64,000 bases of DNA from Paracoccaceae bacterium (lineage in GTDB: Bacteria > Pseudomonadota > Alphaproteobacteria > Rhodobacterales > Rhodobacteraceae), in assembly GCA_014762635.1 (NCBI GenBank), contig JABURR010000042.1, forward strand, positions 1 through 64,000. Reading direction: 5' to 3'. A program made the translations under genes and the position numbers. The notes under the pieces are model-generated. The model had not been told where the DNA came from, did no database searches, and saw only the letters and a program-made list of their open reading frames with translations. This document shows, one piece after another, positions 45,545-64,000 of this stretch; position 1 is the first letter of the stretch; each line of letters begins with the position of its first letter.

Positions 45545-47071
45545 TCAATCCAGACCCTGAGCACCGCTCCCCACTCCCTCGGCGAGCGCCAAGTCTTTCT
45601 CCTCGATCAGGCTGAACGAGACGTAATATTTGAAGATATTACGTACATAGGTGACCGGCTCCCGTGAAATCTCTCGCGCGGCGGCCAGTTCAACGTTGGA
45701 GAACCAGACATCGGGATCCAGCCCCATTCGTTCTGCGCGACGGCGCGCGCGGGCGATGTTGCCGGGGCCGGCATTGTAGGCAGCGAGCGAGAACATGATC
45801 TCATCGAACGGCTCGATATCGCCATCGTTGAAATACGTGTCCCGCACCCAGCGGAGGTATTTCACGCCCGCATGGATATTGTCATTCCTGTCCCAGACAT
45901 TCGGCAAGCCGATGTACGGCTCCTTGGCGGTGGCGGGCAGCACCTGCATGATCCCGACTGCCCCTGCCCGGCTGTTCGCAGACTGTTCAAGGCCGGATTC
46001 CTGGTAGGCTTGCGCAAGGATCATCCTCCAGTCGAAATCGTACTGTGAGGAATATTCCTGTATGAGAGCCAGGATTTCCTCGTAGTCGTCCTGTTGTCGG
46101 CCTTCACGAATGGCTTGGATCCAGGAACTTGATCCAAGATACCTCTTGCGGAGTATGTTCCCCAGCAACGTCCCTTCCCTGACCTTCCGCACGAACCCGT
46201 TCATGACGGACATGAGTTCGGGTGAATCCTTGCGCATGGCCCAGGCGATTTCGCCGTCCTCGTTGAATGCAAGGTCCTGATGGACGGTGACATTTGGGAA
46301 GACCTCGGACCATAGCTCCATCTTGTGGCTGTCCACGATGATTGCCGGAATGGTCCCTATGCTGAGCAATTCCAGAAGGTCGTAATCTTCCAACCGCTCG
46401 TCGGCCAGGGTCATTGGGATTGCCGCCTTGCCCGCCTGACGGCGCATCTGGTTCAAGGCCTGGGCACTGGAAAAGTAGCTGCTGGATTTCCTGACGTAGA
46501 TCCCGCGCGTCACCAGGTCGTCGAACGAGGCCACCTTTCCGGCCGCCGGGCCAGTCACGACCAGTTCCGACACTCCGGTGAAAATCGGCCTCGTGAAATC
46601 GACCACCTCCTGACGGTGTGAGGTAATCGTCAAGTTGGCCATAGCCAGGTCCGCCCGTCCTTCGATCACCGCAGGCAATATCTGGTCGCGCGGCAGAGGC
46701 ATCAGGATCACGTTGATGCGCGATCCGTGCACACGGGCCAGGTAGGTTTCCATCTCTCGCGCCAGATCGACGGCAAATCCTATGAGGTTCTCGCCATCAT
46801 AGCTGAAATAGATCGGAGTATAGGGGATCGCAACGCGCAGCATCCCCGACTCGGCAATCGCATCGAAATCCCCCAAGCGGGGCTCCATCGCCGAGGTGAT
46901 GACCTCGATCTCATCGCGGGATGCACCATTTGCGGAGGGTTCGACCAAACCGACGTCGGTCTCGGGTCGGGTCTCGGCACTGATCGACCAGGACTGCGCC
47001 GAGGAAAGCACAACCAGCACGAACAGGGCGAAAAGGGCGATATGACGCGCAGCCTTCGAAAATTTCCGCAT
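45545..47071 (-). CDS. MltF-like membrane-bound lytic transglycosylase
   Basis: A 508-residue periplasmic protein with a signal or anchor segment at the start. A family-3 solute-binding domain covers about residues 65-300 (VAIPYTPIYFSYDGENLIGFAVD is the start), and a lytic transglycosylase SLT domain follows, with catalytic Glu in QAYQESGLEQSANS, then GAVGIMQVLP and FSLAAYNAGPGNI. This two-domain layout is that of MltF, which cleaves peptidoglycan glycan chains. The start is the ATG at 47071, because upstream codons are unrelated. It is divergent from the LapG-like gene. Confidence 0.9.
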   Translation of the reverse strand: MRKFSKAARHIALFALFVLVVLSSAQSWSISAETRPETDVGLVEPSANGASRDEIEVITSAMEPRLGDFDAIAESGMLRVAIPYTPIYFSYDGENLIGFAVDLAREMETYLARVHGSRINVILMPLPRDQILPAVIEGRADLAMANLTITSHRQEVVDFTRPIFTGVSELVVTGPAAGKVASFDDLVTRGIYVRKSSSYFSSAQALNQMRRQAGKAAIPMTLADERLEDYDLLELLSIGTIPAIIVDSHKMELWSEVFPNVTVHQDLAFNEDGEIAWAMRKDSPELMSVMNGFVRKVREGTLLGNILRKRYLGSSSWIQAIREGRQQDDYEEILALIQEYSSQYDFDWRMILAQAYQESGLEQSANSRAGAVGIMQVLPATAKEPYIGLPNVWDRNDNIHAGVKYLRWVRDTYFNDGDIEPFDEIMFSLAAYNAGPGNIARARRRAERMGLDPDVWFSNVELAAAREISREPVTYVRNIFKYYVSFSLIEEKDLALAEGVGSGAQGLD

Positions 47072-47581
47072 GTGCGGACATCCTCCTGTCTGTAAGTCTA
47101 GCGCATTATCAACAACGGCCAACTACGTGACCGGACTCGACAACCCAGTGTTGCACACACCCCACGCCCCACAAACTTGCCGGGCGCGAAATCTCGCCTA
47201 AATCGCCTCTCCGAAAGAGGAGCGATTTGATCACGAGAGGCGGGTTCGGTCTCGCCCGTGCACATTATCGCGAAGAACACGTGTCGAGCGGATACCCGTG
47301 ATGGTCGAAACCACACCAAGACCACTGGTCATTTCTTGGCTTGCCGCAGCCGCCGGAGGCTGGGTTGAGGGGTGCGCGGCACCACGACAATGCAAGAGCA
47401 TTCTCCAAAATTGTCTTCGAGATCGGGTCCATTTGCCAAATTCCAGCCCCATTTCGCCACAACCGGCCACTCTGCCGCCACGTTGCAAGCCAAATTTCCG
47501 AGTAAACGATTCTTATCGGTCGAGTTGCTGCTCGGCTGAGATTTTGAATTTGGCCGTTGCACTTTCTGTGGGGGAAAGCCG
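47072..47581. other. 510-bp divergent intergenic region
   Basis: Between the MltF-like gene and the LapG-like gene no ORF with a believable start or codon use is present. A hairpin at 47200-47228 (AAATCGC ... GCGATTT with an inner CTCT/AGAG) is the clearest structure; GC-rich dyads (GGCGGG ... CGCCCG) follow. It probably holds promoters of both genes and a long leader. Confidence 0.5.
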
Positions 47582-48309: not shown

Positions 48310-48822
48310 TCAGTCGTTGCTTTCCCCGTGTTGGCCGCCCTCTTCGTCATCACCATCGTTCCTTGGGTCTTCACCCGACCGACCGACCGGCTTCGTGTTG
48401 CCAGGGTTCCCCAAATTGTCGTCAGACTCGTCGTCGCTCTGGTCATCAGACTCATCGTCGCTTTCGTCGTCGGACTCATCGTCGCTTTCGTCGTCTCCAA
48501 AGATAAAGGGCTGGTGCGGCTTTCCCCTGACCGTGGCAGTCGGATTCTCTGTCAGGCGCAATGCTGCATCGGGACAGACCTGGAACATACGTTGAAGCAG
48601 TGTCTCATAGTCCGGCCTGCGCTGGATCCGCGCCAGCGCGTCCCTTTCTATGAATTCCCATGCACAAAGGTTGTTTTCCGCAACCTGACGGTACGGAATG
48701 ACTTCTGGTTCCACCCTGGCCTGGGCAAGCGAACCCGCGAAAGCCCGTTCCGTAGCTGAAACCGAAAGTACAAGAACTCCGGCCGCGGCAAAGCCGCGGA
48801 CAAAACGTGTTGAATTTTTCAT
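48310..48822 (-). CDS. secreted protein with acidic Ser-Asp-Asp-Glu repeat tail
   Basis: A 170-residue exported protein. Residues 1-29 are a signal peptide (FAAAGVLVLSVSATERAFA). The next 75 residues contain Cys at NNLCAWEF and VCPDAALR, probably a small disulfide-bonded domain. From about residue 107 the chain is a run of SDDE units, DDESDDESDD and so on, followed by Asn/Gly/Pro-rich NLGNPGNTKPVG and an acidic end DGDDEEGG. The tail is disordered and could bind Ca2+. It is convergent with the LapG-like gene. No function is known. Confidence 0.7.
   Translation of the reverse strand: MKNSTRFVRGFAAAGVLVLSVSATERAFAGSLAQARVEPEVIPYRQVAENNLCAWEFIERDALARIQRRPDYETLLQRMFQVCPDAALRLTENPTATVRGKPHQPFIFGDDESDDESDDESDDESDDQSDDESDDNLGNPGNTKPVGRSGEDPRNDGDDEEGGQHGESND
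48425..48496. repeat. three tandem 24-bp repeats encoding the acidic tail
   Basis: Units 48425-48448, 48449-48472 and 48473-48496 each encode one 8-residue block of the SDDE tail. Units 2 and 3 are identical except for their last base; unit 1 differs at six positions, mainly in its 3' half. Copy-number variation by slippage or recombination is possible. Confidence 0.7.
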
Positions 48823-51512: not shown

Positions 51513-52367
51513 CTAGGTCTTGCCCAGGATGCTGGCTTCCATTGCTTGGCGCAGATCATCCGTGACGGTCGGCTCCAGCCCGAACCAGAGCTTCCAGGCG
51601 GGCGGCCCCTGGTAAAGCAGCATACCCAAGCCGCCGACGACCGTGTTGCCACGCGCTTCGGCTGCTTTCAGGAAGTCGGTCTTGAGCGGCGTGTAGATGA
51701 TGTCCGCGGCGACAGTTTCCCGGGCAAGCTTGTCCAGTTTCAGGTCCAATGGCGGTTGTCCGACCATTCCCAGGCTCGTGGTATTCACAACCGTTGCGGC
51801 CCCCTCAAGGGCATCGTGGCGTCCCTCCCACGGAACCACGTTGATCGGGCCGCCGAAGTCCGCGGCGATGCGTTCCGCGCGATCACGGGTGCGGTTCACC
51901 AGCCGGATCTCGGGGCAGCCCTCGTGCAGCAGCGCATGGCAGATCGCCCGCGATCCGCCGCCAGCGCCCAGCACGACAGCAGGCCCCGCATTTCCGCACC
52001 AGTCCGGCGCGCCGTTCTTGAGGTTTCCGAGAAATCCCCGCCAATCGTTGTTGGTCCCGAAAAGTGCCCCATCCTCCCGCACCACGGCGCAGCTGATCGC
52101 ACCGATCTTTCGGGCGACGTCGTCCAACTCGTCGACCACCTGCATGGCATCCAGCTTGTGCGGAATCGTCAGGTTGCAGCCCGAGAAGCCAAGCGGATGC
52201 AATGCCCGCAGCGCCGCCTCGACGGCTCCGGGCTTGATGGCGAGCGGCACGTAGGTCCCCTTCAGTCCCTGTTGCCGGAACCAGTAGTTGTGCATGAGCG
52301 GAGAGCGTGAGTGCATCACGGGCCAGCCCATGACACCGGCCATGTAGAACCTATCCTTGTCGATCAT
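51513..52367 (-). CDS. shikimate-dehydrogenase-family oxidoreductase
   Basis: A 284-residue AroE/YdiB/QuiA-type NAD(P)-dependent dehydrogenase. The substrate domain has MGWPVMHSRSPLMHNYW and GCNLTIPHKLDA with catalytic Lys; the nucleotide domain has VVLGAGGGSRAICHALL. It ends with the NTTSLGM and GLGMLLYQG motifs. As the last gene of a catabolic operon it is more likely to be a quinate/shikimate-type or substrate-specific dehydrogenase than the biosynthetic AroE. The start at 52367 overlaps the preceding gene by 17 bases. Confidence 0.82.
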   Translation of the reverse strand: MIDKDRFYMAGVMGWPVMHSRSPLMHNYWFRQQGLKGTYVPLAIKPGAVEAALRALHPLGFSGCNLTIPHKLDAMQVVDELDDVARKIGAISCAVVREDGALFGTNNDWRGFLGNLKNGAPDWCGNAGPAVVLGAGGGSRAICHALLHEGCPEIRLVNRTRDRAERIAADFGGPINVVPWEGRHDALEGAATVVNTTSLGMVGQPPLDLKLDKLARETVAADIIYTPLKTDFLKAAEARGNTVVGGLGMLLYQGPPAWKLWFGLEPTVTDDLRQAMEASILGKT

Positions 52368-53055
52368 GAGCACCCCCGTCCAGCTTGGCGCGGAAATGAT
52401 CCCACGTTCGCTGAAAAAGCACAGTATTCCAGAGCTTTCCGCGGCATAGTTCACGCTCTTCCTCACTGAAAGAATAGGGCGTTCCGATCTGCATCGCCAT
52501 GTACTGGCGGTGCGCGTTTTCCTCGAGGTAGTTGATCAGCACGAAAGCCTCGACGATATCCTTGCCGGCCGTCACCGCCCCATGGGATTTCATCAATGCG
52601 GCCGGGCGATCCTGCAACACCTCGCAAAGCCGCGCCGACATCTCGGGCGAGTTGATCGAGTTCGGCGTATCCAGAACCCCAACCGGATAGAGCAGCGATC
52701 CCTGAGCAAACACAGGCAGGTAGTCGTGCCCGGTCATGGTCAGGTAGGTCGACCACTTGGGATGCGCATGGACAACCGCGCCAGCGTCGGGCCGCGCCTT
52801 GTAGATGCCCGCGTGCAGGTGAAACTCCAGCGGCGGCTTGCCGTTGCCCTCCAGCACGTTCCCGTCGAGGTCGATCCGGCAGATGTCACCGGCGGTCAAC
52901 TGGCTGCGCTGGCTCGACCCGATGTTGATCAGCATCTGGTCGTCACCGACCCGGATACTGGCGTGTCCGTTGTAGTCGATGATCTCGGACTCCTCGAGCA
53001 TGCGCAGGCAGTCGGCAAGCTGGATCTTGGCGGCTTCGATGTCGGCCTTGGTCAT
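52351..53055 (-). CDS. class II aldolase/adducin-family protein 1
   Basis: A 234-residue class II aldolase-like enzyme, normally using a divalent metal to split carbon-carbon bonds or decarboxylate. The metal ligands appear as HLHAGIYKARPDAGAVVHAHPKWS with several His, and ALMKSHGAVTAG adds another. The acid residue is Glu in PLEFHLHAG. In phthalate pathways, members of this family act as dihydroxyphthalate decarboxylases. It lies between a similar gene and the AroE-like gene, in one operon. Confidence 0.82.
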   Translation of the reverse strand: MTKADIEAAKIQLADCLRMLEESEIIDYNGHASIRVGDDQMLINIGSSQRSQLTAGDICRIDLDGNVLEGNGKPPLEFHLHAGIYKARPDAGAVVHAHPKWSTYLTMTGHDYLPVFAQGSLLYPVGVLDTPNSINSPEMSARLCEVLQDRPAALMKSHGAVTAGKDIVEAFVLINYLEENAHRQYMAMQIGTPYSFSEEERELCRGKLWNTVLFQRTWDHFRAKLDGGAHDRQG

Positions 53056-53070
53056 TGTGGCTCCTTGCTG

Positions 53071-53817
53071 TTACCAGCCGGTCTGATCGCGGATTTCGGA
53101 ACGCCAGAGGTCCCAGGCGCGCATCCCGGCGGTGAGGTTCGGTTGATCCGCAAGGGCGCCCTCCCCTTCGGACAGGGCCGCCAGCGGCCCGCCGTTGGCC
53201 AGTGCCGTGGCCCAGTGCTGGATGCGGGCGCTGACCTCGGTATAGACGGCACGGAAGACGGCCACCTGCAGGCTGGGTCCGCAGGCCACGGAGCCATGCG
53301 CGCGCATCAGCGCGATATCCTTGTCGCCGAGCTTCTCGGCCAGGGCGACGCCCTTGGCGCAATCGCAGACCAACATGTCCGTCTCGCCGAATTTCTCGGA
53401 TATGTCGAAGACCGGTACGCCCTTGGCAAGGAAAGCCGCGTTGTGGAACATCGCCTGCATCTTCACCTCGGTCAGGCCAAACGGGATCACCGAGGGAGAA
53501 TGGCTGTGCACGACCGAGTTGATGTCGGGCCGCGCCTTGTAGATCTCGCCATGGATGAACCGCTCCAGGAAGCCCTTCGGCGCCTCCGGATCGCAGGCCG
53601 TGCTGTCGAGATCATATTCGACGATATCCTCGGGCGTCACCAGCGCAGGCGCAAGGCCACGCGACATCAGGTAACGATCCGGCGTATCCGGGTGGCGCAT
53701 GGAGACGTGTCCAAATCCATCCACCACCCCGCGCGCGGCAAGGATGCGGCTTGCGGCGGCAAGGTCGGCCAGCAGGTCGGCGCTGACGAGGCCGCCGGAT
53801 GCGGGAGTTGTCGTCAT
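53071..53817 (-). CDS. class II aldolase/adducin-family protein 2
   Basis: A 248-residue relative of the preceding gene product, clearly diverged. It has RFIHGEIYKARPDINSVVHSHSPS with the His cluster, ALMRAHGSVACG with the last His, and the GFGHVSMRHP segment near the start. Two different family members in one operon suggest two successive steps or two substrates. It ends 15 bp before the other, with its own ribosome site. Confidence 0.82.
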   Translation of the reverse strand: MTTTPASGGLVSADLLADLAAASRILAARGVVDGFGHVSMRHPDTPDRYLMSRGLAPALVTPEDIVEYDLDSTACDPEAPKGFLERFIHGEIYKARPDINSVVHSHSPSVIPFGLTEVKMQAMFHNAAFLAKGVPVFDISEKFGETDMLVCDCAKGVALAEKLGDKDIALMRAHGSVACGPSLQVAVFRAVYTEVSARIQHWATALANGGPLAALSEGEGALADQPNLTAGMRAWDLWRSEIRDQTGW

Positions 53818-53826
53818 ATTATCCCC

Positions 53827-54816
53827 CTAGATGATGACCTTGGTCATCACGCTGGCCGGAAAGATTTCCTCGGGCGTGAACTGGCGATGCGCGATGCCCT
53901 GCTGATAGGTGTAAAGTGCCATCTTCTCCCAGGTCGCGCGGTTTTCCTCCACGCCGAAGGGGAACGGGTCCTTGCCGAAGATGCCCTGCATCCGACGTGC
54001 GTAGATCGGCAGCCATGCCACGGGATAGCGCGACACGGCGGGGTCGAGGATACGCTCTACGCTGCGCCGCTTCGATTCCTGGAATGCGTTGAAAAGGTTG
54101 CGCGCGGCCCAGGGATGCGCGTCATGCACGCTCTTTTTCATGGCGATGATATGCATGATCGGCCAGACCTTGGACTCGGCGTAATATTCCTCTTCCATCT
54201 CGAGGAAATTTGGGAAGAGCCGCACCACGTCGGGATGCCTCTCAAGGAAACACGTTGGCGGGCGTGCGATGATGGCGCAATCCAGCTCACCCGAGGCCAG
54301 CATGTCGGAGAGTGACTTGTCCTTCACACGGGTGATCTCGACCCCGTCGGGGAGGTTCAACTCCACCTTCTCCTCGCGCCCGGGAGAGTTCGCTCCGGCC
54401 TGAACCCACTTGATATCCTGAAGCGGAATGCCCTTGTCGTTCTGCATCCAGCCACGCATCCAGACGGCGGCAGAATGCGCCCATTCCGGGCTGCCGACCG
54501 TCTTGCCGCGCAGGTCCTCGATCTTCTCTATCCCGGCTTTTCGGTTGACGTAGAACGAGCTGAAGCGGAACAGGCGCGAACAGATCACGGGCAAACCAAT
54601 CAGGTCGCTGTCGGGCCGCGTGACCTGGGTCGAGAATTTGGCAAAGGACATTTCCGACAGGTCGAATTCCCGGTTCGCGGTCATCCGGGCGAAGCACTCA
54701 TGATGGCCTAGCAACAGCCAGTTCGGGTCAATCCCCTCAGCTTTGACCTCTCCGGTGCGGAAATCGCGGAAATGGTCGTAATCCGTTGTGGCGATCGTCA
54801 GTTTCAGTTTCGACAT
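53827..54816 (-). CDS. 4,5-dihydroxyphthalate-decarboxylase-like protein
   Basis: A 329-residue protein like Pht5, the enzyme removing CO2 from 4,5-dihydroxyphthalate to give protocatechuate. The protein has the periplasmic-binding-protein-like fold but no signal peptide, consistent with a cytosolic enzyme. Family stretches are LTIATTDYDHFRDFRTGEV, FDLSEMSFAKFSTQVTR, and KTVGSPEWAHSAAVWMRG. No phthalate dioxygenase (Pht3/Oph type) is present, so its real substrate may be another carboxylated catechol-like compound. Confidence 0.8.
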   Translation of the reverse strand: MSKLKLTIATTDYDHFRDFRTGEVKAEGIDPNWLLLGHHECFARMTANREFDLSEMSFAKFSTQVTRPDSDLIGLPVICSRLFRFSSFYVNRKAGIEKIEDLRGKTVGSPEWAHSAAVWMRGWMQNDKGIPLQDIKWVQAGANSPGREEKVELNLPDGVEITRVKDKSLSDMLASGELDCAIIARPPTCFLERHPDVVRLFPNFLEMEEEYYAESKVWPIMHIIAMKKSVHDAHPWAARNLFNAFQESKRRSVERILDPAVSRYPVAWLPIYARRMQGIFGKDPFPFGVEENRATWEKMALYTYQQGIAHRQFTPEEIFPASVMTKVII

Positions 54817-54842
54817 GCTCCCCCCTGTCCCTTGGCACCCTA

Positions 54843-55934
54843 TCAGTTTCTTATGGTTTGCAGGAACCAGCTATCCGGCACCTCGTGGCCCAGCCCTTTT
54901 GCCACGGCGGCCTCAAAGGCGCGCCCGGCCACGGCGTAGAATTGCGCGCCTTGCAGGTTCCCCCGCTCCGACCAGGTGATCTGCTCGTCCGAGGTCCGCC
55001 CCGGGCGGCAGCCTTCGTGCAGGTCTTTCAGCGTCACCCGCTTTTCCGGCAGCATGACCCCGTGCGCGCGCTTCTTCTTGCGCGGCTGACCACCTTGCAC
55101 GCGCCAACTCAGGTATTCGTCGTCGAACTGAATGTCCTCAAGGCCCTCGGGCGCGGGCGCATCGCCGAAGCGCAGGTAGACGTCCACACGCTCCATCGTG
55201 CGGGCATCGGGCAGGCCGCCGCCTCCGATATTGACCACATGGGTTCCGGGCTCCAGCAGATCGCCATTCAGCACCGGCTGGGCTGCATCGGTCAGTGAGG
55301 CCACGATATCGGCCCCGCGATAGACCTGCTCGGGCGCATCGCAGACCTGAACGTCGATCCCGTATCGCTCCGCTATCCGGGCGCCAAAGGCGTCACGGTT
55401 TGCCTTGGTCGGGCTGTAGACTTGGAGTTTGCGGATATTTCGCGCCAGGCAGAAGGACAGCATATGCGTCTCGGCCATCCCGCCCGAGCCGAGCATCCCC
55501 ACCACCTCGGCCTCCTTGCGAGCCATATGCTTGACGCCAAGGCCACCGTCCCCGCCTACCCGCATGTGTTGCAGGACGCCGTCATTGATCAGCGCCAGCG
55601 GTTCGCCGGTTTCCACGCTGGTCAGGAAGATCAGCCCACAAAACAGCCCGGGCTGCTTGCAGTATTTCTCTTGCGTGCGGGTGCCGTCGTCCGCGGTCTG
55701 GTAATAGAGCACGTCGGATTTCATCCGGATCGCGAAATACCCATCGGCCGAGCCGCCTTCCATGGTGCCCCAGCGATATTCGCGGTCGGGATCGCTGGTG
55801 GGGATCGAGATGTCGATCCTCGGGCGACAGACGGCCCGTCCCCGCGCGATGTTCAGATAGGATGTCTCCAGCGCGTCCATGGTCATTTCCATGGTCAGCA
55901 CCTTTGAAATCGTCTCGTTGTCGAGGATCAGCAA
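54843..55934 (-). CDS. ornithine cyclodeaminase / mu-crystallin family protein
   Basis: A 363-residue Rossmann-fold enzyme. The nucleotide-binding segment is EAEVVGMLGSGGMAETHMLSF, followed by TKANRDAFGARIAERYGI. Family members catalyse ornithine cyclodeamination, ketimine or alanine reduction, and lysine- or tauropine-type reactions. The C-terminus has an unusual Arg/Lys stretch (QPRKKKRAHG). Within this operon its role is probably reduction or deamination of an intermediate, but no precise reaction can be claimed. Confidence 0.8.
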   Translation of the reverse strand: MLILDNETISKVLTMEMTMDALETSYLNIARGRAVCRPRIDISIPTSDPDREYRWGTMEGGSADGYFAIRMKSDVLYYQTADDGTRTQEKYCKQPGLFCGLIFLTSVETGEPLALINDGVLQHMRVGGDGGLGVKHMARKEAEVVGMLGSGGMAETHMLSFCLARNIRKLQVYSPTKANRDAFGARIAERYGIDVQVCDAPEQVYRGADIVASLTDAAQPVLNGDLLEPGTHVVNIGGGGLPDARTMERVDVYLRFGDAPAPEGLEDIQFDDEYLSWRVQGGQPRKKKRAHGVMLPEKRVTLKDLHEGCRPGRTSDEQITWSERGNLQGAQFYAVAGRAFEAAVAKGLGHEVPDSWFLQTIRN

Positions 55935-55947
55935 CGTCTCGCGCCCC

Positions 55948-56412
55948 CTAGAGGAGCCATTCGAGGAAGAACCCCTGGAACAACGAAAGCTCCAACAGCC
56001 AGATGAACATCCCGTACATCACGGCAAAGGTTCCACCGGCGGCAAACAGGGCATTCTGCCAACTGTCCCGGCTCGAGAATCGCACGAATGCCCCCACGAT
56101 GACCGGGCCGCCAAGGATGAAGCCGAAACACAGCAGGATGACTGTGAAAAGCCCCAGCCACAGAAAGGCCTGTGCTTCCGATTGACCGTCTTCGCCCTGA
56201 TCCTGCGCGGCCTGCGCCCCTTGCCTGGCCACATCTTCGGGCTTGCGCCTGAGATCAATCACCAGCTGCGCGGCACAGAGAATGGCGCCCGGCACGCCGA
56301 TCAGAAGCGGCATGAAGCGCGCCTTGGTGGGCAGGTCCAATGCCAGAAGACTTGCCCCGGCAAAGATGACCAACATGACCATGGTGGTCGCAGTGCGGCC
56401 GTCAAACGTCAT
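55948..56412 (-). CDS. tripartite tricarboxylate transporter small subunit TctB
   Basis: A 154-residue inner-membrane protein with about four hydrophobic segments (for example TATTMVMLVIFAGASLLALDL and FLWLGLFTVILLCFGFILGG), the size and pattern of TctB. It works with TctA and a periplasmic TctC to import carboxylates using an ion gradient. Its start overlaps the TctA stop by eleven bases. Confidence 0.88.
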   Translation of the reverse strand: MTFDGRTATTMVMLVIFAGASLLALDLPTKARFMPLLIGVPGAILCAAQLVIDLRRKPEDVARQGAQAAQDQGEDGQSEAQAFLWLGLFTVILLCFGFILGGPVIVGAFVRFSSRDSWQNALFAAGGTFAVMYGMFIWLLELSLFQGFFLEWLL

Positions 56413-57907
56413 AATGGATCCCCTTGCCCCGCGGCGCCGTGCGCTGCCGCCAGATGTATGTTCCGATGGTCAGAACAATCAGCGCGATCAGAACCAGCGA
56501 GAGCGGTCGCAGGAAGAATGTCGGCCCCCAAATTGCCAGCGCCTTATGGATGGAGTCCTCGGCAATCGCGCCAAGGACCAGCCCGATCACGAAAGGCGGA
56601 CGCGGCCAGCCATATTTCTTGAGGAAATAGCCAAGGATGCCGATCATGACGAGCAGCACCATGTTCTCCCACGCCGCCTCGGAAAGGTAGGCTCCCAGGA
56701 AGGCAAGCACCAGGACGAACGGGATCAGCAGCGTCCCACGCACGAAGACCAGCAACGAAAAAGCGGGCGCCATGGCCAGAAACACGAAGACCGACAGGAT
56801 ATTGGCCAACGCCAACGCCCAGATCAACGACCAGACAAGATCCATTCCTGTAAGCGCGATATGGGGCCCCGGCTGGATTCCCAGCATGACGAAAGCCCCG
56901 ATAAGGATTGCCATCCCCGAAGAACCGGGAACCCCGAAGAACAGAGTAGGCAGCAGCGATCCGCCTTCCTTGGAGTTGTTTGCGGTCTCGGGCGCGATAA
57001 CGCCGCGCACATCGCCCTTGCCGAAGTTCTCGGGGTTCTTGCAGGTCTGAACCGCGTGCCCATAGCAAAGCCACGAGGCCGCATCCCCTCCCAGGCCCGG
57101 GATCGCACCGATGGCCGCCCCGATGATCGAGGTCCTTAGCGTCAGCCACCAGTTACGGAAGACATCCAGTATGCCCTCGATGACCTGGCGCAGATCGTAG
57201 CGTGCCATCTTGCCAGAGACCTCGGCAATCGAGCCTCCCTTGACCCCAAGCGCCAGCATCTCGGGCAACGCGAAGAGTCCGAGGACCGCTGCGACGACGC
57301 TGACCCCCTCCCACAAGAAGAGTTGGTCAAAGGTGAAACGCTGCGATCCCGTATGCGGGTCGAGCCCCACCAGCGACACCATGATCCCCAGAAGGCCAAC
57401 CGTGACGCCCTTCATGAGGCTGCGCCCCGAAAGCATGGCGATGAAGGTGATCCCGAAGATCGCCAGCAGGAAGAACTCGGCCGGGCTGAAGGCCAGAACG
57501 ACGGGCTTGAGCACGGGCAGCATGGCGGCAAGGAATAGCGCGCCGATCACCCCCCCGATCCCGGATGCCCCGAGCGAGGCGCCAAGCGCCCGCCCAGCCT
57601 CGCCCCTTTGAGCCATGGGATAACCGTCGACGATAGTCGCGGCGTCAGGCCCGGTTCCCGGGACCCCGAACAGGATCGACGGGATAGACCCGCCCGTGTG
57701 GACGACAGCGTGCATGGACAACAGGAAGACGGCACCGGGCAGCGGTTCCATCCCGAAAACGAAGGGGATGAGCAGTACGATCCCCAGTTTGCCGCCCAAC
57801 CCCGGAACCGCGCCAAAAAACATCCCGATCGGGATAGCAAGCAGGATGAGTCCCATCAAATATGGGGATGTGACGATATTGATCAGCGGCGAAAAGATGG
57901 CTTCCAT
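56402..57907 (-). CDS. tripartite tricarboxylate transporter large subunit TctA
   Basis: A 501-residue permease with ten or more hydrophobic segments. Family signatures are FFGAVPGLGGKLGIVLLIPF, GGSIPSILFGVPGTGPDAAT and the repeat version AAIGAIPGLGGDAASWLCYG, FFGVPGSSGMAILIGAFV. The two internal halves show the inverted-repeat pattern of TctA. The start is the ATG at 57907; earlier residues are not family sequence. It is the first gene of the seven-gene minus-strand operon. Confidence 0.92.
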   Translation of the reverse strand: MEAIFSPLINIVTSPYLMGLILLAIPIGMFFGAVPGLGGKLGIVLLIPFVFGMEPLPGAVFLLSMHAVVHTGGSIPSILFGVPGTGPDAATIVDGYPMAQRGEAGRALGASLGASGIGGVIGALFLAAMLPVLKPVVLAFSPAEFFLLAIFGITFIAMLSGRSLMKGVTVGLLGIMVSLVGLDPHTGSQRFTFDQLFLWEGVSVVAAVLGLFALPEMLALGVKGGSIAEVSGKMARYDLRQVIEGILDVFRNWWLTLRTSIIGAAIGAIPGLGGDAASWLCYGHAVQTCKNPENFGKGDVRGVIAPETANNSKEGGSLLPTLFFGVPGSSGMAILIGAFVMLGIQPGPHIALTGMDLVWSLIWALALANILSVFVFLAMAPAFSLLVFVRGTLLIPFVLVLAFLGAYLSEAAWENMVLLVMIGILGYFLKKYGWPRPPFVIGLVLGAIAEDSIHKALAIWGPTFFLRPLSLVLIALIVLTIGTYIWRQRTAPRGKGIHYDV

Positions 57908-58133
57908 GCCGAAACTGTGCTCCTCCCTCGCCGACGGACGAACCGCGACGCTCGCTGGCGGACCTTCTTGCCTGCCCGTCCAGTCACCGCAAAGTGTAGG
58001 CACAGGACCCCAACGTGGCAATTCGATTTTGGACCAGCGTTCCGCATACAGGAAATCCGGGAACGGTCCGATTGAACGAACGCCAACGGCATTGTCATCT
58101 TGATCAACAGCGCTGACAGGAGGAGACATCGCC

Positions 58134-59000
58134 GTGAAAGTCGGGTTCGTAGGCGTGGGCGCCATGGGCGCCGCGATGGCCGGTCATGTGGTTCGCGCCA
58201 ATCACGAGGTCATGGCATTCGACACCGACACCGAGGCACTGTCCGCTGCCGCCATAGGTGACGTTCAGGCCGCGTCGGATTTGGGCGAGATTGCGCGGTT
58301 CTCGCAAATCGTGATCGTCATGGTCGCCTCCGACGATCAAAGCCGAACCGTGACCCACGCGCTACTCGATGCGGGTATCGCTTCAGGATCAACCATTGTC
58401 GTCACCGCCACCAACCACCCGAAAACGATGATCGAACTCGCGCGTGACTGCGCGGTGAAGGGCGTCGATTTCGTGGATGCCCCGGTTTGCTATGGCCTGC
58501 AGGGCGCGAAGAACGGAAACCTCATCTCACTTTGCGGCGGGGCGCCGGACGTTGTCGAACGGGTTGCGCCAATCCTCGAATGCTACAGCCGCAGCGTCGA
58601 GCATCTGGGCGACCATGGCTGCGGCCAATTGGGCAAGACCTGCAACAACATGATGCATTGGGCAGCCTGTGTAGCCAACTACGAGGTTCTGGCATTGGCC
58701 AAGGCCTGCGGGATCGACGCCCAGTCCATGCGGGAAACCCTTCTGAAATGCCCCGCCCGGAACACCACGCTCGAGCGTTGGGATACGACCCGGTTCACAT
58801 GGCACCAGAAGGACATGGACGTCGCCTTGGAACTGAGCCAGCAGGCGGGCCTCGCCCTGCCCCTCTTCGGCGCCGTGGATCAGCTGGTTAAACGTCTGGG
58901 CCCCGACCGTGTGCGCGAACTGCTCCACGAGGAGAATGCCGAATACCTTGGCCTTCCAATCCCGGTCAGACCCTTGGCCGAGGTCGCGGGCCAAGACTGA
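58134..59000 (+). CDS. 3-hydroxyisobutyrate-dehydrogenase-like oxidoreductase
   Basis: A 288-residue NAD(P)-dependent beta-hydroxyacid dehydrogenase. The Rossmann motif is VGFVGVGAMGAAMAGHVV, the active-site lysine is in GCGQLGKTCNNMMHWA, and GVDFVDAPVCYGLQGA is the substrate motif. The start is a GTG at 58134 behind AGGAGGAGAC. It is divergent from TctA, over a 226-bp control region. Relatives act on hydroxyisobutyrate, tartronate semialdehyde or similar beta-hydroxy acids. In this cluster a role in catabolism is likely. Confidence 0.85.
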   Translation: MKVGFVGVGAMGAAMAGHVVRANHEVMAFDTDTEALSAAAIGDVQAASDLGEIARFSQIVIVMVASDDQSRTVTHALLDAGIASGSTIVVTATNHPKTMIELARDCAVKGVDFVDAPVCYGLQGAKNGNLISLCGGAPDVVERVAPILECYSRSVEHLGDHGCGQLGKTCNNMMHWAACVANYEVLALAKACGIDAQSMRETLLKCPARNTTLERWDTTRFTWHQKDMDVALELSQQAGLALPLFGAVDQLVKRLGPDRVRELLHEENAEYLGLPIPVRPLAEVAGQD

Positions 59001-59031
59001 CACCCGTTTTTCTATACGGAACGCTGTGCCG

Positions 59032-59060
59032 TTGACGGGAAAAGGGGTGGTTTGTACTCT
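59032..59060 (+). promoter_or_regulatory. promoter of the cupin-cupin-TctC unit
   Basis: TTGACG (59032-59037), 17 bp, TACTCT (59055-59060), between the dehydrogenase stop and the first cupin gene. It would start a transcript near 59067, before the AGGGAGGAA ribosome site. Confidence 0.55.
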
Positions 59061-59091
59061 TTTTTAGTTTCGTGAACAGGGAGGAACGCGA

Positions 59092-59670
59092 ATGTCAGAA
59101 ACCTCCGATTCCGGCGCCGGCGTCGGCCACAACAGCGAAAAGCGGGAAAAGGTCGTTTGGGAGCGCTGGACCAAGAAGCGCACCTTTGTCCGCGCGCTTG
59201 AGGGCACCTACGGGCAGCTGAAGGAAGAACTCTACAACCAGCCGCGCGTTTATCGCACCAGCGACATGAAGTGGAAAGGCGGGCCCCAGAACTTCGGCAA
59301 GAAGGTCATCAACCCGCAGGCCAACCGCATCGCCCAGTCGATCGAGGCGCACGTGGATGCCTTCGCCCCCAAGGGCTATGGCCAGATCCACGGCCACATG
59401 AACTCGGCCGTCTTCTTCGTGTTGAAGGGCAAGGGCCACGACATCCACGATGGCCGCAAGCTGCCGTGGGAAGCTGGCGACGCGCTGATCGTGGAAAACG
59501 CTTGCGTGCACCAACACCTCAACGACAGTGACGATGAGACCTTCGTACTGGTGCTGAAGGCGAAACCTCTCTTCCTGTTCATGCACATGATCTTCCAGAA
59601 GATGGTGGAATTCCCGCCCGAAGATCCGGTTCCCGGACACGAAGATTACGCGCCCCCGGCCAGCCTGTGA
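59092..59670 (+). CDS. single-cupin protein 1 of a split pair
   Basis: A 192-residue protein with one cupin domain. Motif 1 is GQIHGHMNSAVFFVLKGKG, giving the H-x-H pair, and motif 2 GDALIVENACVHQHLND with a third His. The pattern resembles a half of gentisate or hydroxynaphthoate-type ring-cleavage dioxygenases. The N-terminal 85 residues are polar and helical. The start is the ATG at 59092 with AGGGAGGAAC upstream. It is followed after 10 bp by a second cupin gene, which suggests a complex. Confidence 0.8.
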   Translation: MSETSDSGAGVGHNSEKREKVVWERWTKKRTFVRALEGTYGQLKEELYNQPRVYRTSDMKWKGGPQNFGKKVINPQANRIAQSIEAHVDAFAPKGYGQIHGHMNSAVFFVLKGKGHDIHDGRKLPWEAGDALIVENACVHQHLNDSDDETFVLVLKAKPLFLFMHMIFQKMVEFPPEDPVPGHEDYAPPASL

Positions 59671-59680
59671 GGAAGATGGT

Positions 59681-60277
59681 ATGAGTATCGATCCGACAAC
59701 CTTTGCCGACGCCATCGAACGTCAGCGCGCCAAGTCGGGCGCGCCGGAAGTCTCGTTCTACAAGGAGGCGCTGGAGGAGTCGCAGAAGTTCCGCAAGGAA
59801 TACGACGACCGCGTCAACGTGGTGAAATGGGACACGATGCCCATGGAGCGGTCGGCTGACGGCCTCATCAAGCACATCATCAACGAGCGGATGGACACCA
59901 AGGAGTGCTGCATCGACATCTACATGCAGTTCATCGAGGCGGGCAAAGCCACCGGCACCAGCCGCCACCTCTCCGAGGAAATCGCCTTCGTGATCGAAGG
60001 GACCGGCCACGACCTGCATTATGACGTGCATTTCGAGTGCAAGACCGCCTTCGAATGGACCTGGGACACCACGCCCAAGAAATACGAATGGGGTCCGGGC
60101 GATTTCATCTACGTCCCGCCCTACGTGGCCCACAAGCGCGTGAACACCTCGGAAATCGAAGCACGCGTGGTGGTTTGCAACAGCCGTGTCATGAAGGCCA
60201 TCGGCCTCGACTGGTTCGACCAACTCGAGCCAGCCGAGGGCTTCGAGGACGTCTGGGTTCCCCCGGCAGACGAATAA
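59681..60277 (+). CDS. single-cupin protein 2 of a split pair
   Basis: A 198-residue single-cupin protein. Motif 1 is SRHLSEEIAFVIEGTGHD with only one clear His, and motif 2 GDFIYVPPYVAHKRVN with another, so its metal site is less complete than in its neighbour. The pair has the total size of a bicupin dioxygenase, so one subunit may be catalytic and the other structural. It is cytosolic. The start is the ATG at 59681 behind GAGGAAG, 10 bp after the preceding stop. It is in the same unit as the TctC gene. Confidence 0.8.
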   Translation: MSIDPTTFADAIERQRAKSGAPEVSFYKEALEESQKFRKEYDDRVNVVKWDTMPMERSADGLIKHIINERMDTKECCIDIYMQFIEAGKATGTSRHLSEEIAFVIEGTGHDLHYDVHFECKTAFEWTWDTTPKKYEWGPGDFIYVPPYVAHKRVNTSEIEARVVVCNSRVMKAIGLDWFDQLEPAEGFEDVWVPPADE

Positions 60278-60347
60278 CCGGGGCGAAGAACGGGTGATCC
60301 GGCCGCAAAGAGCCGGGCGCCCGATGTTCATCAAGGGAGTAAAGCCA

Positions 60348-61805
60348 ATGAAAAAGACACTTGGCGCGGTGACACTCGCCTGTCTGACCGCCCTGCCCGC
60401 CTGGGCAGAGGGGTTCTACGAAGGCAAGACCGTCACCTATATCATCGCCACCAACCCGGGCGGCAACTACGACGCCTACGGGCGCCTGATCGGCCGCCAC
60501 CTGGAAGAGCATCTTGGCGCCGACAAGGTGATCTTCAAGAACCTGCCCGGAGCGGGCCATATCATCGGGGCCAACACGCTATATGCATCCAAGCCCGACG
60601 GGCTGACGATAGGGACCTTCAACACCGGCCTGATCTACGCGCAGATCCTGCAACGCGAAGGCATCCAGTTCGACCTGAACGAATTCAGCTGGATCGGAAA
60701 GGCCGCCGCGGACCCGCGCGTGATGGTTCTGTCGAACAACTCGGGGCTCGGAAGCTTCGAAGATCTTGCGGCCAGTCAAAACAAGGTCCTGTTCGCGGCC
60801 TCCGGCGTGGGCTCGGCTTCGTTCACCGAAACCAAGATGCTGGCAGACGGCCTGGACCTGAACATCGAGATGATCCCCGGCTACCAGGGCAACGAGGGCG
60901 AAATGGCCATGCTGCGCGGCGAGGTCGTGGGCCAGGTCGGTTCGCTGAGCTCGCTCCAGCCGTTCATCGACGCGGGGAACGGGTTTCTTGCCATTGGGAT
61001 CGGTGGCGACGTGCAACCCGCAGCCATCGCTTTCGCGACCACGGACAAGGGCAAATCCATCGTCAACCTTATCGCGGCGATGTCGACCCTGGGCCGCCTG
61101 ACGGCGGCGCCTCCGGGCGTGCCGGAAGATCGTCTGGCCGAACTGCGTGATGCCTACATGGCCGTCATGACCGATCCGGACTTCCTTGCCGAAGCCGAAA
61201 AACTGGGCCTGCCGATCGAACCCTCCCCCGGCGACCAGGTTGATGCAATGGTCGAAGCCGCGCTGAACCAAAGCCCTGACACCGTTGCGATCATCTCGGC
61301 AGCCTTGTCGGTCGAAATCCCCACGATCAAGGTCACGACCGACATTCTTGCTCTCGAGGATCGAAACAAGGTCGTCACCTTCATGTCGGGCGATCAAAAG
61401 GTCTCGGGCGAGATTTCGGGGTCGCGGACTGCGGTCAGCCTCAACGGCGCCGAGGCCGAACGCGGCGACCTTGCTGTCGGAATGCACTGCGAGATCGAAT
61501 ACGATCCGAACAGCGACGTGAACGAGTTCAAGATGATCTCCTGCTCGGGTGAGGCCATGGCCGCAGCCGCGACGATGATGATGATCTCCAGCAAGATTAT
61601 CGGCCTCGAAGATCGCAACAAGATCGTGACCTTCATGGCTGACGGTGCCGAAACCGTCGGCGAAGTCTCAGGTTCTCGCACGACGGTCACGGTGAACGGC
61701 AACGCGGCCGAGCGTGGTGATCTCGCAGCGGGCATGACCTGCGAGTTCGGCTACGAGGCCGCCGAAGAGATCGAGTTCAAGACCGTTTCCTGCACATCGA
61801 ACTGA
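60348..61805 (+). CDS. TctC-type binding protein with a duplicated C-terminal domain
   Basis: A 485-residue periplasmic binding protein of the TTT family, with signal peptide cut near WAEG. The N-terminal part, to about residue 325, is an ordinary TctC (TVTYIIATNPGGNYDAYGRL, VIFKNLPGAGHIIGANTLY, GLTIGTFNTGLI). The last 160 residues are extra: two copies about 84 residues apart, each with LEDRNKV/IVTFM (from L336 and L420), then GSRT, ERGDLA and GM-x-C, ending with SC. Two cysteines per copy could form a disulfide. Normal TctC is about 320 residues. The start is the ATG at 60348 behind AAGGGAG. Confidence 0.87.
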   Translation: MKKTLGAVTLACLTALPAWAEGFYEGKTVTYIIATNPGGNYDAYGRLIGRHLEEHLGADKVIFKNLPGAGHIIGANTLYASKPDGLTIGTFNTGLIYAQILQREGIQFDLNEFSWIGKAAADPRVMVLSNNSGLGSFEDLAASQNKVLFAASGVGSASFTETKMLADGLDLNIEMIPGYQGNEGEMAMLRGEVVGQVGSLSSLQPFIDAGNGFLAIGIGGDVQPAAIAFATTDKGKSIVNLIAAMSTLGRLTAAPPGVPEDRLAELRDAYMAVMTDPDFLAEAEKLGLPIEPSPGDQVDAMVEAALNQSPDTVAIISAALSVEIPTIKVTTDILALEDRNKVVTFMSGDQKVSGEISGSRTAVSLNGAEAERGDLAVGMHCEIEYDPNSDVNEFKMISCSGEAMAAAATMMMISSKIIGLEDRNKIVTFMADGAETVGEVSGSRTTVTVNGNAAERGDLAAGMTCEFGYEAAEEIEFKTVSCTSN

Positions 61806-61832: not shown

Positions 61833-61861
61833 GGGGCGCCTTTGGGCGCCCCTATTTCATT
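61833..61861 (+). terminator. intrinsic terminator between TctC and the MFS gene
   Basis: GGGGCGCC-TTTG-GGCGCCCC followed by TATTTCATT. It lies between convergent genes and may act in both directions; its 3' end overlaps the stop codon of the MFS gene. Confidence 0.75.
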
Positions 61862-63098
61862 CCCCGGTCAGGGTCCGGATGCGCCTGAGCTGCGGGAAGC
61901 CCTTCATCCAGAGCCCCGCCACAGCCAGCGTTCCCACGGCGCCGAACGTGACCGCCGCCACCGGTCCGATCAAGGCAGCCATGGCCCCGGCGCGGAACCC
62001 GCCAAGCTCGTTCGAGGCGCCGATGAATACCTGGTTTACCGCGTTGACCCGACCTCTGAGTTCATCAGGGGTCCAAAGCTGAATGAGCGTACCGCGGATG
62101 TAGACGCTGATCATGTCAGCCCCGCCCATCAACGCCAGCGCGATGACGGAGATCCAGACAGTCTTGGACAGGGCGAAAACCAGCGTGAAGGCCCCGAAGG
62201 CCATCACCGAGGCAAACATGATCTTGCCCGCGTGATTGGTGACAGGGCGGAAGATCAGAAGCGCCCCCACCGTGATAGCCCCCACCGCCTGAGCCGAGCG
62301 CAACAGCCCAAGGCCCGTTGGCCCCACGTCGAGTACATCGCGCGCAAAGACAGGCAACAGTGCCGTCGCCCCGCCCAGCAGAACGGCGAACAGATCGAGC
62401 GAGATCGCCCCAAGGATCACCTTCTCGGACCAGATGTATCGGAAACCGGCGCTGATCTTTTCCCAGGTTGCATAGCTCATCGCCTTACGTTGCGCCGGTT
62501 GCGGGATCGAGATCATCAGAACGACCGCTGCCAGGAGCAGCCCGAATGTCACGCCATAGGCCGCTGGCGGCATGAGTCCATAAAGCAGCCCACCCGCGAC
62601 CGGCCCGCAGATCGTGGCGAATTGCTGCGCCGAGGTGGTGATGGCGATGGCGTTGGGCAGGTCCTTCGCCGGAACCAGGTTCGGAACGATGGCTTGCCGC
62701 GCGGGGTTGTAGAACGCTCGTGCCGCGCCAAAGAGGATCAGGAAGCCAAAGATCGGCAACGCGCTGCTGGCATCGCTCCGCGCCACGTAGAGCAGACCCG
62801 CCGCGGCCACCGCCTTGATCGCCAGGCAGACGCCAAGGATCATCCGACGCGGATAGCGGTCCGCGACGGCTCCGGTCACCAGGACCAGCAGCAGTGCGGG
62901 CATGAACTGCGAAAGCCCCACAAGGCCAAGGTCCAGCGGATCGCGGGTCAGGTCATAGACCTGCCAGCCGATGGCGACGGTTTGGATCTGCAGCGCGAAG
63001 ACCGTGAAGATATGGGCGATCCAGTACCGCAGGAAGCCGCTATGCCGGAACACGGCAAAACGCCCTTCGCCTTCCTCTTCATCAGCCTTCGCGGTCAT
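61857..63098 (-). CDS. MFS transporter, EntS-like
   Basis: A 413-residue major facilitator carrier with about 12 hydrophobic segments. The signature loop between helices 2 and 3 is VTGAVADRYPRRMIL. The RGRVNAVNQVFIGASNELGG stretch, with a preceding LWTPDELRG, places it in the EntS-like group of drug or siderophore exporters. It is the second gene of a minus-strand pair, 13 bp after the TPP enzyme. It may release a product or protect against a toxic intermediate, but the substrate is unknown. Confidence 0.86.
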   Translation of the reverse strand: MTAKADEEEGEGRFAVFRHSGFLRYWIAHIFTVFALQIQTVAIGWQVYDLTRDPLDLGLVGLSQFMPALLLVLVTGAVADRYPRRMILGVCLAIKAVAAAGLLYVARSDASSALPIFGFLILFGAARAFYNPARQAIVPNLVPAKDLPNAIAITTSAQQFATICGPVAGGLLYGLMPPAAYGVTFGLLLAAVVLMISIPQPAQRKAMSYATWEKISAGFRYIWSEKVILGAISLDLFAVLLGGATALLPVFARDVLDVGPTGLGLLRSAQAVGAITVGALLIFRPVTNHAGKIMFASVMAFGAFTLVFALSKTVWISVIALALMGGADMISVYIRGTLIQLWTPDELRGRVNAVNQVFIGASNELGGFRAGAMAALIGPVAAVTFGAVGTLAVAGLWMKGFPQLRRIRTLTGE

Positions 63099-63111: not shown

Positions 63112-64000
63112 TCACCGGTGCCGAGTGATCACGTCAACCAGCGCGGGCTTTCCGGACTTCACCACTTCCAGCGCACGCCGGATCGCGGGCGCCACGTCCT
63201 CGGGCTGGTCGATGGGGCCTTCCCCCCACATGCCCATGCCCTTGGCGATGGTGGCGAAATCCGGTTCCGGGTCGAAGATGTCCATGCCGATATGGGCCTT
63301 GTCCTCGTCGGTGCCGCGCATCCGGGCCATGCGGATCTGGTGGTGCCAGTCGTTGTAATAGGCGCGGTTGTTGAACATCACGATCAAGAGCGGGATCTCG
63401 TGCTTCGCCGCGGTCCAGAGCGCGCCTGCGTCGTACATCAAGTCCCCATCCGGCTGTATCGCCACGACCACCTTGTCCGACTTTTTGTGCGCCAGCGCCA
63501 CGCCCAGGCTCATGCCGATCTGGGTTGAGGTGCCAAGGCCCTTGCCCGGGTGCCGGTAGGGCTTGTCGAAATCCCAAAGCTTGCGCGTCCACTGGCGCAG
63601 GGTCCCCGCGCTGAGAACCCAGTCCTCGTCCTTGATGACCGACCAGATCTCCTCGGCCAGCCGCGCGGTGGTCAGGGGCGAGGCATTGTGATCGGCTTTC
63701 GCCTCTTCGGCCCAACGGGCAAAGTTCTCGGCATGCCGGGCGGCGAAGACCTTCTTGCGGGCCTCGATCCGATCCGCCAGGGCCGGATCCGCGGCGATTT
63801 TCACCTTCGCGATCTCGGTCATTTGGGGCATGGCAACCCGTGGGTCACCCAACGCGCTGAGCGATTTTGGTAGATACCGTCCATAGTCCAGGGACCATGA
63901 CCCGATCCCGATCTCGTGGAAGCCCACCTCCATCCAGGTGCAGTCCTCCCGGAGGTAGGAGGTCAGTTCGCGATTTGTGCTATCGAGCTTGGCGACGGCC
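63112..64000 (-). CDS. thiamine-diphosphate-dependent enzyme (5' part outside window)
   Basis: The C-terminal 296 residues of a TPP enzyme of the acetolactate synthase/benzoylformate decarboxylase group. The TPP-Mg motif is visible as QPDGDLMYDAGALWTAAKHEIPLLIVMFNNRAYYN (G-D-G/L to N-N), after LGTSTQIGMSLGVALA. The frame is open to the window edge, so the N-terminal domain with the catalytic glutamate is not seen. It is the first gene of the pair with the MFS carrier and belongs to the same neighbourhood as the catabolic cluster. Reaction unknown; 2-ketoacid decarboxylation or carboligation is likely. Confidence 0.87.
   Translation of the reverse strand, partial: AVAKLDSTNRELTSYLREDCTWMEVGFHEIGIGSWSLDYGRYLPKSLSALGDPRVAMPQMTEIAKVKIAADPALADRIEARKKVFAARHAENFARWAEEAKADHNASPLTTARLAEEIWSVIKDEDWVLSAGTLRQWTRKLWDFDKPYRHPGKGLGTSTQIGMSLGVALAHKKSDKVVVAIQPDGDLMYDAGALWTAAKHEIPLLIVMFNNRAYYNDWHHQIRMARMRGTDEDKAHIGMDIFDPEPDFATIAKGMGMWGEGPIDQPEDVAPAIRRALEVVKSGKPALVDVITRHR

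Follow-up and report, generated by a model that had tools for sequence, protein, structure and literature searches.

The window analysed here consists of bases 1 to 64,000 of the 102,013-base contig JABURR010000042.1 of a Paracoccaceae bacterium (assembly GCA_014762635.1, 96% complete), and contig and window coordinates agree. Towards its right end two genes for single cupins, CupA (59092..59670, +) and CupB (59681..60277, +), lie side by side among genes for a transporter, dehydrogenases and decarboxylase-like proteins. In our view these genes form the left end of a catabolic island of roughly 45 kb that serves the breakdown of an aromatic carboxylate, the gene set running on for about 35 kb past the window edge. 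The island has the look of a conserved pathway for an aromatic acid, made up of known enzyme families, by which an acidic aromatic compound is probably broken down along an undescribed route, with the two small cupins as the likely ring-opening enzyme. With moderate confidence we read it as a route of import, Rieske hydroxylation, decarboxylation, ring opening by a heteromeric cupin and a LigJ/LigK end, the substrate probably being an isophthalate-like dicarboxylate.

According to this scheme the tripartite tricarboxylate transporter TctABC would import the acid, and a Rieske oxygenase with its reductase and ferredoxin would hydroxylate the ring. Dehydrogenases and Pht5/PhtC-like decarboxylases would restore aromaticity and remove a carboxyl group. 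The ring would be opened by a heteromeric cupin dioxygenase, for which CupA would provide the metal site and CupB the second half, or else by a second cupin pair beside LigJ. The cleavage product would reach 4-oxalomesaconate, which LigJ would hydrate and LigK would split to pyruvate and oxaloacetate. Family membership is the basis for the first and last steps, while the order of the steps, the cleavage by the cupins and the substrate are what we infer. As a guess, conversion of a hydroxylated isophthalate to gallate would fit the carbon count.

Conservation of the gene set around the cupins

An alignment search with CupA in a one-genome-per-species collection gave 422 relatives, and the best 80 of these 422 loci, from other proteobacteria, were examined. 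To be counted, homologues had to share 50% identity across 60% of the length of the shorter protein (referred to as the 50% level) or, for some counts, to be the best match at E 1e-10. All linkage counts are lower bounds because just 35 of the 80 loci hold 20 kb or more. CupB is adjacent to CupA on the same strand in 71 of the 80 loci, and of the nine others one stops 35 bases past CupA. At the 50% level a homologue of the island Rieske oxygenase gene is present within 10 kb in 33 loci, of the island bicupin in 32, of TctA in 31, of the two ArsP-like membrane halves in 23 and 25, and of the 3-hydroxyisobutyrate dehydrogenase-like (HIBADH) protein and TctC in 23 each. Next are the EutA-like protein (18 loci), a 182-residue protein (15), a NicO-like protein (12), a thiamine-diphosphate enzyme (11), and TctB and an IclR regulator (8 each). 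Genes from the region 1-48000 of the window were taken as controls (n = 41); at 50% they had no homologue in the 80 loci, and at 40% three of them had one, in 1, 1 and 5 loci. Since homologues of the island genes recur near CupA while the control genes do not, the gene set is not a chance association.

Much of the island is found in one stretch in the relative G020, in Roseibium marinum (loci L035 and L139) and in Pseudomonas agarici (L070 and L140). Within a set of 101 genomes, made up of the genome under study and its relatives, CupA of more than 80% identity was found only in this genome and G020, and therefore the island is patchy. A second-type CupA (42-43%) is present in both of these genomes as well, and six other relatives have weak cupin matches only, which at 27-31% identity were not scored as CupA. 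Going by record titles, CupA homologues are widespread in marine and lake bins, which suggests a natural substrate.

Enzymes of the proposed pathway

CupA matches PF07883 (40.4 bits), and its residues H100, H102 and H140 are invariant in 81 of 81 sequences. By the family motif we take these three histidines to be metal ligands; we propose that they form the metal site and that CupA is the catalytic subunit. In CupB the residues H96, E100 and H151 are invariant in all 71 sequences. When the profiles were compared with solved chains, the best match was gentisate 1,2-dioxygenase 3bu7 for CupA (E 2.8e-13) as well as for CupB (E 8.4e-11). Each cupin thus matches a cupin domain of the kind found in gentisate 1,2-dioxygenase and 5-aminosalicylate 1,2-dioxygenase (MabB), to which the three conserved histidines of CupA add a further likeness. 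In gentisate 1,2-dioxygenase, however, the two cupin domains are on one chain, whereas CupA and CupB are separate genes, and the cut-off of 650 of the MabB model NF049978 is far from reached (35.4 and 26.1 bits). The name of the PnpCD-type two-subunit hydroquinone dioxygenase is absent among the Protein Data Bank matches of the CupA and CupB profiles at E 0.01, no direct comparison having been made. The island also has a bicupin of its own (open reading frame (ORF) 69233-70576), next to the Rieske gene. In profile comparison CupA prefers the C-terminal half of this bicupin (3.2e-7 vs 1e-3) and CupB the N-terminal half, by a small difference (5.9e-10 vs 1.2e-8); a second bicupin of the island gives the same order of preference, the profiles being low in diversity. 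Matching opposite halves is as expected for a split bicupin. That the two cupins together make one oxygenase, as the original prediction had it, is plausible on these comparisons: their adjacency and the opposite bicupin halves speak for it, while their match to one and the same half of 3bu7 (see below) does not, and the complex itself we infer.

The genes near the cupins give a hint on the metal. A small His-rich protein is encoded at 66025-66456 (-), and a small protein of this kind occurs in 41 of the 80 CupA loci; its last 40 residues hold at least 4 His in 34 of them and at most 3 in 7. In L073, L082, L098 and L103 it directly follows CupB. In L082 (L082:11218-12740) the small protein is followed by a HoxN/NixA-type nickel/cobalt transporter (TIGR00802, 349.9 bits, cut-off 333.05), which stays below the cut-off of the NicT model (404.4 against 450). 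A homologue 84% identical to this transporter is present in L100 just after CupAB, where other loci carry the NicO-like gene; in the island the latter (66528-67313) is only weakly NicO-like, with 26.4 bits for a cut-off of 27.7. Because a His-rich protein and nickel/cobalt-transporter-like genes are found near the cupins, nickel or cobalt use by the pathway is suggested, and hence perhaps a Ni/Co-dependent cupin. Alternatively, these genes may serve metal export, needed because of a chelating substrate. The nickel quercetinase QueD (PMC4416304) is a cupin dioxygenase that takes up nickel; it serves as a precedent only, the metal here being suggested by neighbouring genes. A more specific version of the pathway, which we hold only tentatively and consider rather doubtful, would make CupA/CupB a heteromeric Ni/Co-dependent dioxygenase that cleaves the ring of a gallate-like trihydroxybenzoate to give 4-oxalomesaconate directly, replaces the LigAB-type enzyme, has its own metal supply encoded nearby (His-rich protein, NicO/NicT, CobW) and belongs to a widespread pathway, the substrate of which would be a natural acid resembling isophthalate.

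The lower end of the pathway is encoded by adjoining genes for LigK (80274-80972; TIGR02798, 335 bits, above the curated cut-off of 304.5) and LigJ (80969-81994), which convert 4-oxalomesaconate to pyruvate and oxaloacetate. LigJ matches no NCBIfam model and is close to solved 4-oxalomesaconate hydratases (E 3.9e-157 to 6dwv). A second cupin pair (83467-84737) lies 1.5 kb from these genes. The presence of LigJ and LigK is shared with the protocatechuate/gallate 4,5-cleavage lower pathway; the difference is that a LigB-type extradiol dioxygenase (PF02900) has no match in the genome under study and that cupins are present where the ring-cleavage enzyme is expected. It may be noted that LigAB-type 4,5-cleavage starting from protocatechuate needs the dehydrogenase LigC and the hydrolase LigI; among the scanned island proteins LigJ is the only Amidohydro_2 member, a genome-wide search not having been made.

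LigJ, CupA and LigB were searched in whole genomes for 50 of the 80 loci. Many of these 50 are metagenome bins, and L027 (G104) among them is apparently identical with the relative G020. LigJ (at E 1e-40) was found in 46 of these 50 CupA genomes. In the 101-genome set it was found in 4, of which two are CupA-bearing genomes, leaving 2 of the 99 CupA-less relatives. The table of LigJ to CupA distances has 48 of the 56 LigJ matches, two fragments in G122, one more piece in G103, two in G106 and three matches of at most 37% identity (G131, G143 and G149) being excluded. Of the tabulated copies 21 lie at most 30 kb from CupA on the same contig, and 10 at most 15 kb from a second-type CupA. The count of LigJ copies close to LigB drew on the full sets of 92 LigB places and 56 LigJ matches. 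None of the 32 LigJ matches of at least 74% identity (29 genomes) lies within 5 kb of LigB, and 40 of the 50 CupA genomes have a LigJ copy that is not beside LigB. LigJ is present with no LigB at all in 12 of the 50, in some perhaps through incompleteness. At the 30 best-scoring LigJ matches (L107-L136) LigK is adjacent in 26, and next to LigK-LigJ there is a CobW-like gene in 21 and an alcohol dehydrogenase in 5. In the island an alcohol dehydrogenase gene (78140-79276) and one for a CobW-family GTPase precede LigK.

The original prediction had found no ring-hydroxylating dioxygenase and had reasoned that the substrate must be already hydroxylated. The absence is an effect of the window edge, since the window stops at base 64,000 of 102,013: beyond it the contig has a Rieske oxygenase (67862-69148, with Rieske and LigXa_C domains), a 2Fe-2S/FAD/NAD reductase (73122-74117) and a Rieske ferredoxin (about 84932-85276). 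Because of these three genes prior hydroxylation is not required, and that part of the claim is not supported. The nearest solved relative of the oxygenase is 9ina/9ioy (480 bits over 414 residues, E 7.2e-143). These codes occur in the paper on the isophthalate dioxygenase (IPDO) of Comamonas testosteroni KF1 (PMC12445078), which names G172, T175, R234, I246, F249, H257, I294 and F333 as determinants and reports that R234 and H257 bind the isophthalate carboxylates. IPDO numbering was mapped by counting along the HMMER alignment, and 9ina has the expected letters at those places. Of the sequences related to the island enzyme, the 32 that share at least 60% identity with it were compared: the carboxylate-anchoring R234 and H257 are kept in all, and G172 is also unchanged. 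T175 is replaced by S, either V or I stands at I246 and I294, and at F333 there is I in 26 sequences, with F retained in 6. The likeness to IPDO therefore covers the domain composition (Rieske and LigXa_C) and the two anchoring residues. Unlike the island locus, which has a separate Rieske-type ferredoxin, IPDO is a two-component system as per the abstract (PMC12445078).

The genes described in the original prediction, eleven in number between 51513 and 61805, are all present in place and strand with their families borne out, ten of them by Pfam or NCBIfam. Of the transporter, TctA (56402..57907, -; PF01970, 413.3 bits, cut-off 28.9; start chosen, ORF to 58165), TctB (55948..56412, -; PF07331, 38.3 bits, cut-off 29.1) and TctC, the solute-binding protein (about 60348..61805, +; PF03401, 64.8 bits; start chosen, ORF from 60294), are each above the Pfam cut-off. 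The nearest solved relative of TctC is, weakly, a terephthalate-binding protein (E 2.2e-11). The eleventh gene, for a 4,5-dihydroxyphthalate (DHP) decarboxylase-like or Pht5-like protein (53827..54816, -), has no Pfam or NCBIfam match and was placed by phmmer through the solved 9jp7 (E 2.5e-60). It has two paralogues on the contig, at 74153-75139 and 76809-77798. A carboxylated aromatic substrate, also part of the original prediction, agrees with the nearest relatives of the Rieske enzyme, the decarboxylase-like protein and, weakly, TctC. The two class II aldolase-like proteins are encoded at 52351..53055 (-; PF00596, E 8.7e-37) and 53071..53817 (-), the best NCBIfam model of the second being PhtC (NF053537, 93.2 bits); the scores with this model, 93.2 and 70 bits, do not reach its curated cut-off of 200. 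Thus the likeness to the phthalate-pathway decarboxylases Pht5 and PhtC is at the family level, with the differences that the PhtC cut-off is not reached and that the island has three Pht5-like paralogues. The AroE-like dehydrogenase (51513..52367, -; NCBIfam NF001312, 343.9 bits, cut-off 295; the shorter start was chosen, ORF to 52466) would have an accessory role. It is likely a catabolic paralogue, because the genome holds two further genes with the Shikimate_dh_N domain. The HIBADH gene (58134..59000, +) has PF03446 and PF14833, and that for an ornithine cyclodeaminase/mu-crystallin (OCD) family protein (54843..55934, -; PF02423, E 1.1e-33) is accessory. As a separate observation, TctC carries a C-terminal extension with repeats of about 75 residues, two in this case, and from protein lengths of 403 to 595 residues the number of repeats probably varies in relatives (L025, L029 and L024).

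Points against the pathway and alternative explanations

Several observations weigh against the proposed pathway, and the first of them concern the cupins. CupA and CupB both best match the same C-terminal half of 3bu7, which does not speak for complementary halves. The structure models give a cupin barrel only, with a mean pLDDT (predicted local distance difference test) score that is low for CupA (67.3) and moderate for CupB (74.3). With both models Foldseek gave a wide mix of cupins, so that they tell hardly more than the fold; among the CupB matches the first 5-nitrosalicylate dioxygenase stands at rank 23 and the first gentisate dioxygenase at rank 44. Also, cupins can act as hydratases, as LumY does after ring cleavage (PMC12746152), so CupAB need not cleave rings. 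It is possible, at a clearly lower probability than the cleavage by CupAB, that the bicupin opens the ring and that CupAB takes over at a later stage, turning over the cleavage product as a tautomerase or hydratase, for which LumY would be the published precedent. The bicupin, which adjoins the Rieske gene, reaches the 50% level in 32 loci, and it is paired with the EutA-like gene, being present in 25 of the 26 loci that have one. Yet its single-sequence match to gentisate dioxygenase is weak (E 0.0011 as compared to 5.8e-9 for CupA), and even with any similarity accepted it is found in just 41 of the 80 loci, many of which are cut short.

Ring opening by the cupins with a LigJ/LigK end also has to face the distribution of LigJ and LigB. 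The contrast of 46 in 50 against 2 in 99 genomes compares taxonomically different sets. At least one LigB-type gene is present in 35 of the 50 CupA genomes and none in 15. LigB lies within 5 kb of 9 of the 56 LigJ matches (these being 57-70% identical), and 6 of the 46 LigJ-holding CupA genomes have only LigB-adjacent copies. The relative G001 has LigK-LigJ (L137, G001:C4:60843-61859; its LigJ being 84% identical) but yields no match to CupA at E 1e-5, and in G042 neither CupA nor LigK lies near a LigJ of 63%; LigJ therefore apparently also serves other routes. Further, the bicupins, the EutA-like, PanB-like and hydrolase proteins and the thiamine enzymes have no assigned step.

The left-hand genes are sparsely linked at the 50% level, namely AroE and the two aldolases in 7 loci each, the DHP decarboxylase-like gene in 6, OCD in 4 and TctB in 8. 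The linkage of cupin and aldolase genes in relatives, on which the original prediction had been staked, is thus found to a limited extent. AroE and both aldolases co-occur in only 7 of the 80 CupA loci (the DHP decarboxylase-like gene in 6 of these), and the adjoining TetR and GMC genes have a homologue at E 1e-10 in none of the 80. The AroE-aldolase-decarboxylase genes could on this count form a separate sugar-acid or quinate-type pathway that abuts the cupin island. We think this unlikely, since in those 7 loci (CupA 81-95% identical) the AroE-aldolase block flanks HIBADH-CupA-CupB on the side where it also lies in the window, and in L027, L030, L035 and L040 it stands beside HIBADH-CupA-CupB without TctA between. 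With TetR and GMC matching in no locus, the left boundary of the island is probably near 51.5 kb.

In the Rieske enzyme F249 is replaced by R (R253) and L198 by N (N202) in 32 of 32 sequences, because of which the substrate is probably not isophthalate itself; from the residues kept and replaced it may carry a pair of carboxylates placed meta to each other, together with one more group that is acidic or polar. A Comamonas-type isophthalate/terephthalate pathway ending in protocatechuate, to which the nearest relatives of the Rieske enzyme and, weakly, TctC would point, is very unlikely in view of these two replacements, the lack of a LigB-type match in the genome (the search did not cover intradiol enzymes for protocatechuate) and the natural substrate suggested by the wide occurrence in marine and lake bins.

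Among open-access papers, as far as titles and the beginnings of abstracts tell, no description of this gene set was recognised, and cupin ring cleavage leading to oxalomesaconate was not found. Three other routes were considered and set aside, again from partial texts: riboflavin/lumichrome breakdown (PMC12746152) has a different gene set, though it includes a hydratase cupin, and no matching gene set was seen for homarine or for dipicolinate (PMC11494986). If the proposed cupin pathway is correct, it would be an aerobic route for an aromatic acid, with a core common to marine Rhodobacterales, Litoricola-type Gammaproteobacteria, lake Rhizobiales and Pseudomonas agarici. It would have a ring-cleavage enzyme not described in the titles and abstract beginnings searched, adding a split (two-gene) cupin dioxygenase, and would explain part of the aromatic-acid recycling in water. 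It would also suggest that EutA-like proteins have a function other than that in ethanolamine metabolism. With cultured strains the pathway is open to a direct test.

Other genes of the island and the window

Between the cupin genes and the remaining island there is a major facilitator superfamily transporter gene (61857..63098, -; PF05977), with a homologue at the 50% level in 2 of the 80 loci. It is followed by the 3′ part of the thiamine-diphosphate enzyme gene (63112..64000, -; PF02775/PF02776), the full gene of which extends over 63112-64884. Outside the window come the two ArsP-like membrane halves (64895-66009) and, after the His-rich and NicO-like genes, the 182-residue protein (67310-67858, -), which adjoins the Rieske gene and has no Pfam or NCBIfam match.

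The EutA-like protein (ORF 70478-72172) is followed by the IclR regulator (72253-73086). A second EutA-like gene (89196-91043) has its own bicupin, so both EutA-like genes of the island adjoin a bicupin gene; EutA-like genes are present in 26 of the 80 CupA loci. In ethanolamine utilisation EutA reactivates EutB, whereas EutB has no match in the genome under study despite the two EutA-like genes. Genes for a PanB-like protein and then an alpha/beta hydrolase lie between the second and third Pht5-like genes, and one for an EamA transporter lies between LigJ and the second cupin pair. After the Rieske ferredoxin come parts of a second and a third Tct transporter and an isochorismatase-like protein, and at the far end of the listed island genes are a second thiamine enzyme, a second OCD gene and a molybdenum hydroxylase subunit.

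Two further observations were made to the left of the island. At 48310-48822 (-) there is an ORF with an acidic repeat of the DDESDDESDD type in its C-terminal half; the opposite strand is also open, and it may be no gene. At 45545-47122 (-) a protein is encoded that combines a family 3 solute-binding domain with a lytic transglycosylase domain.

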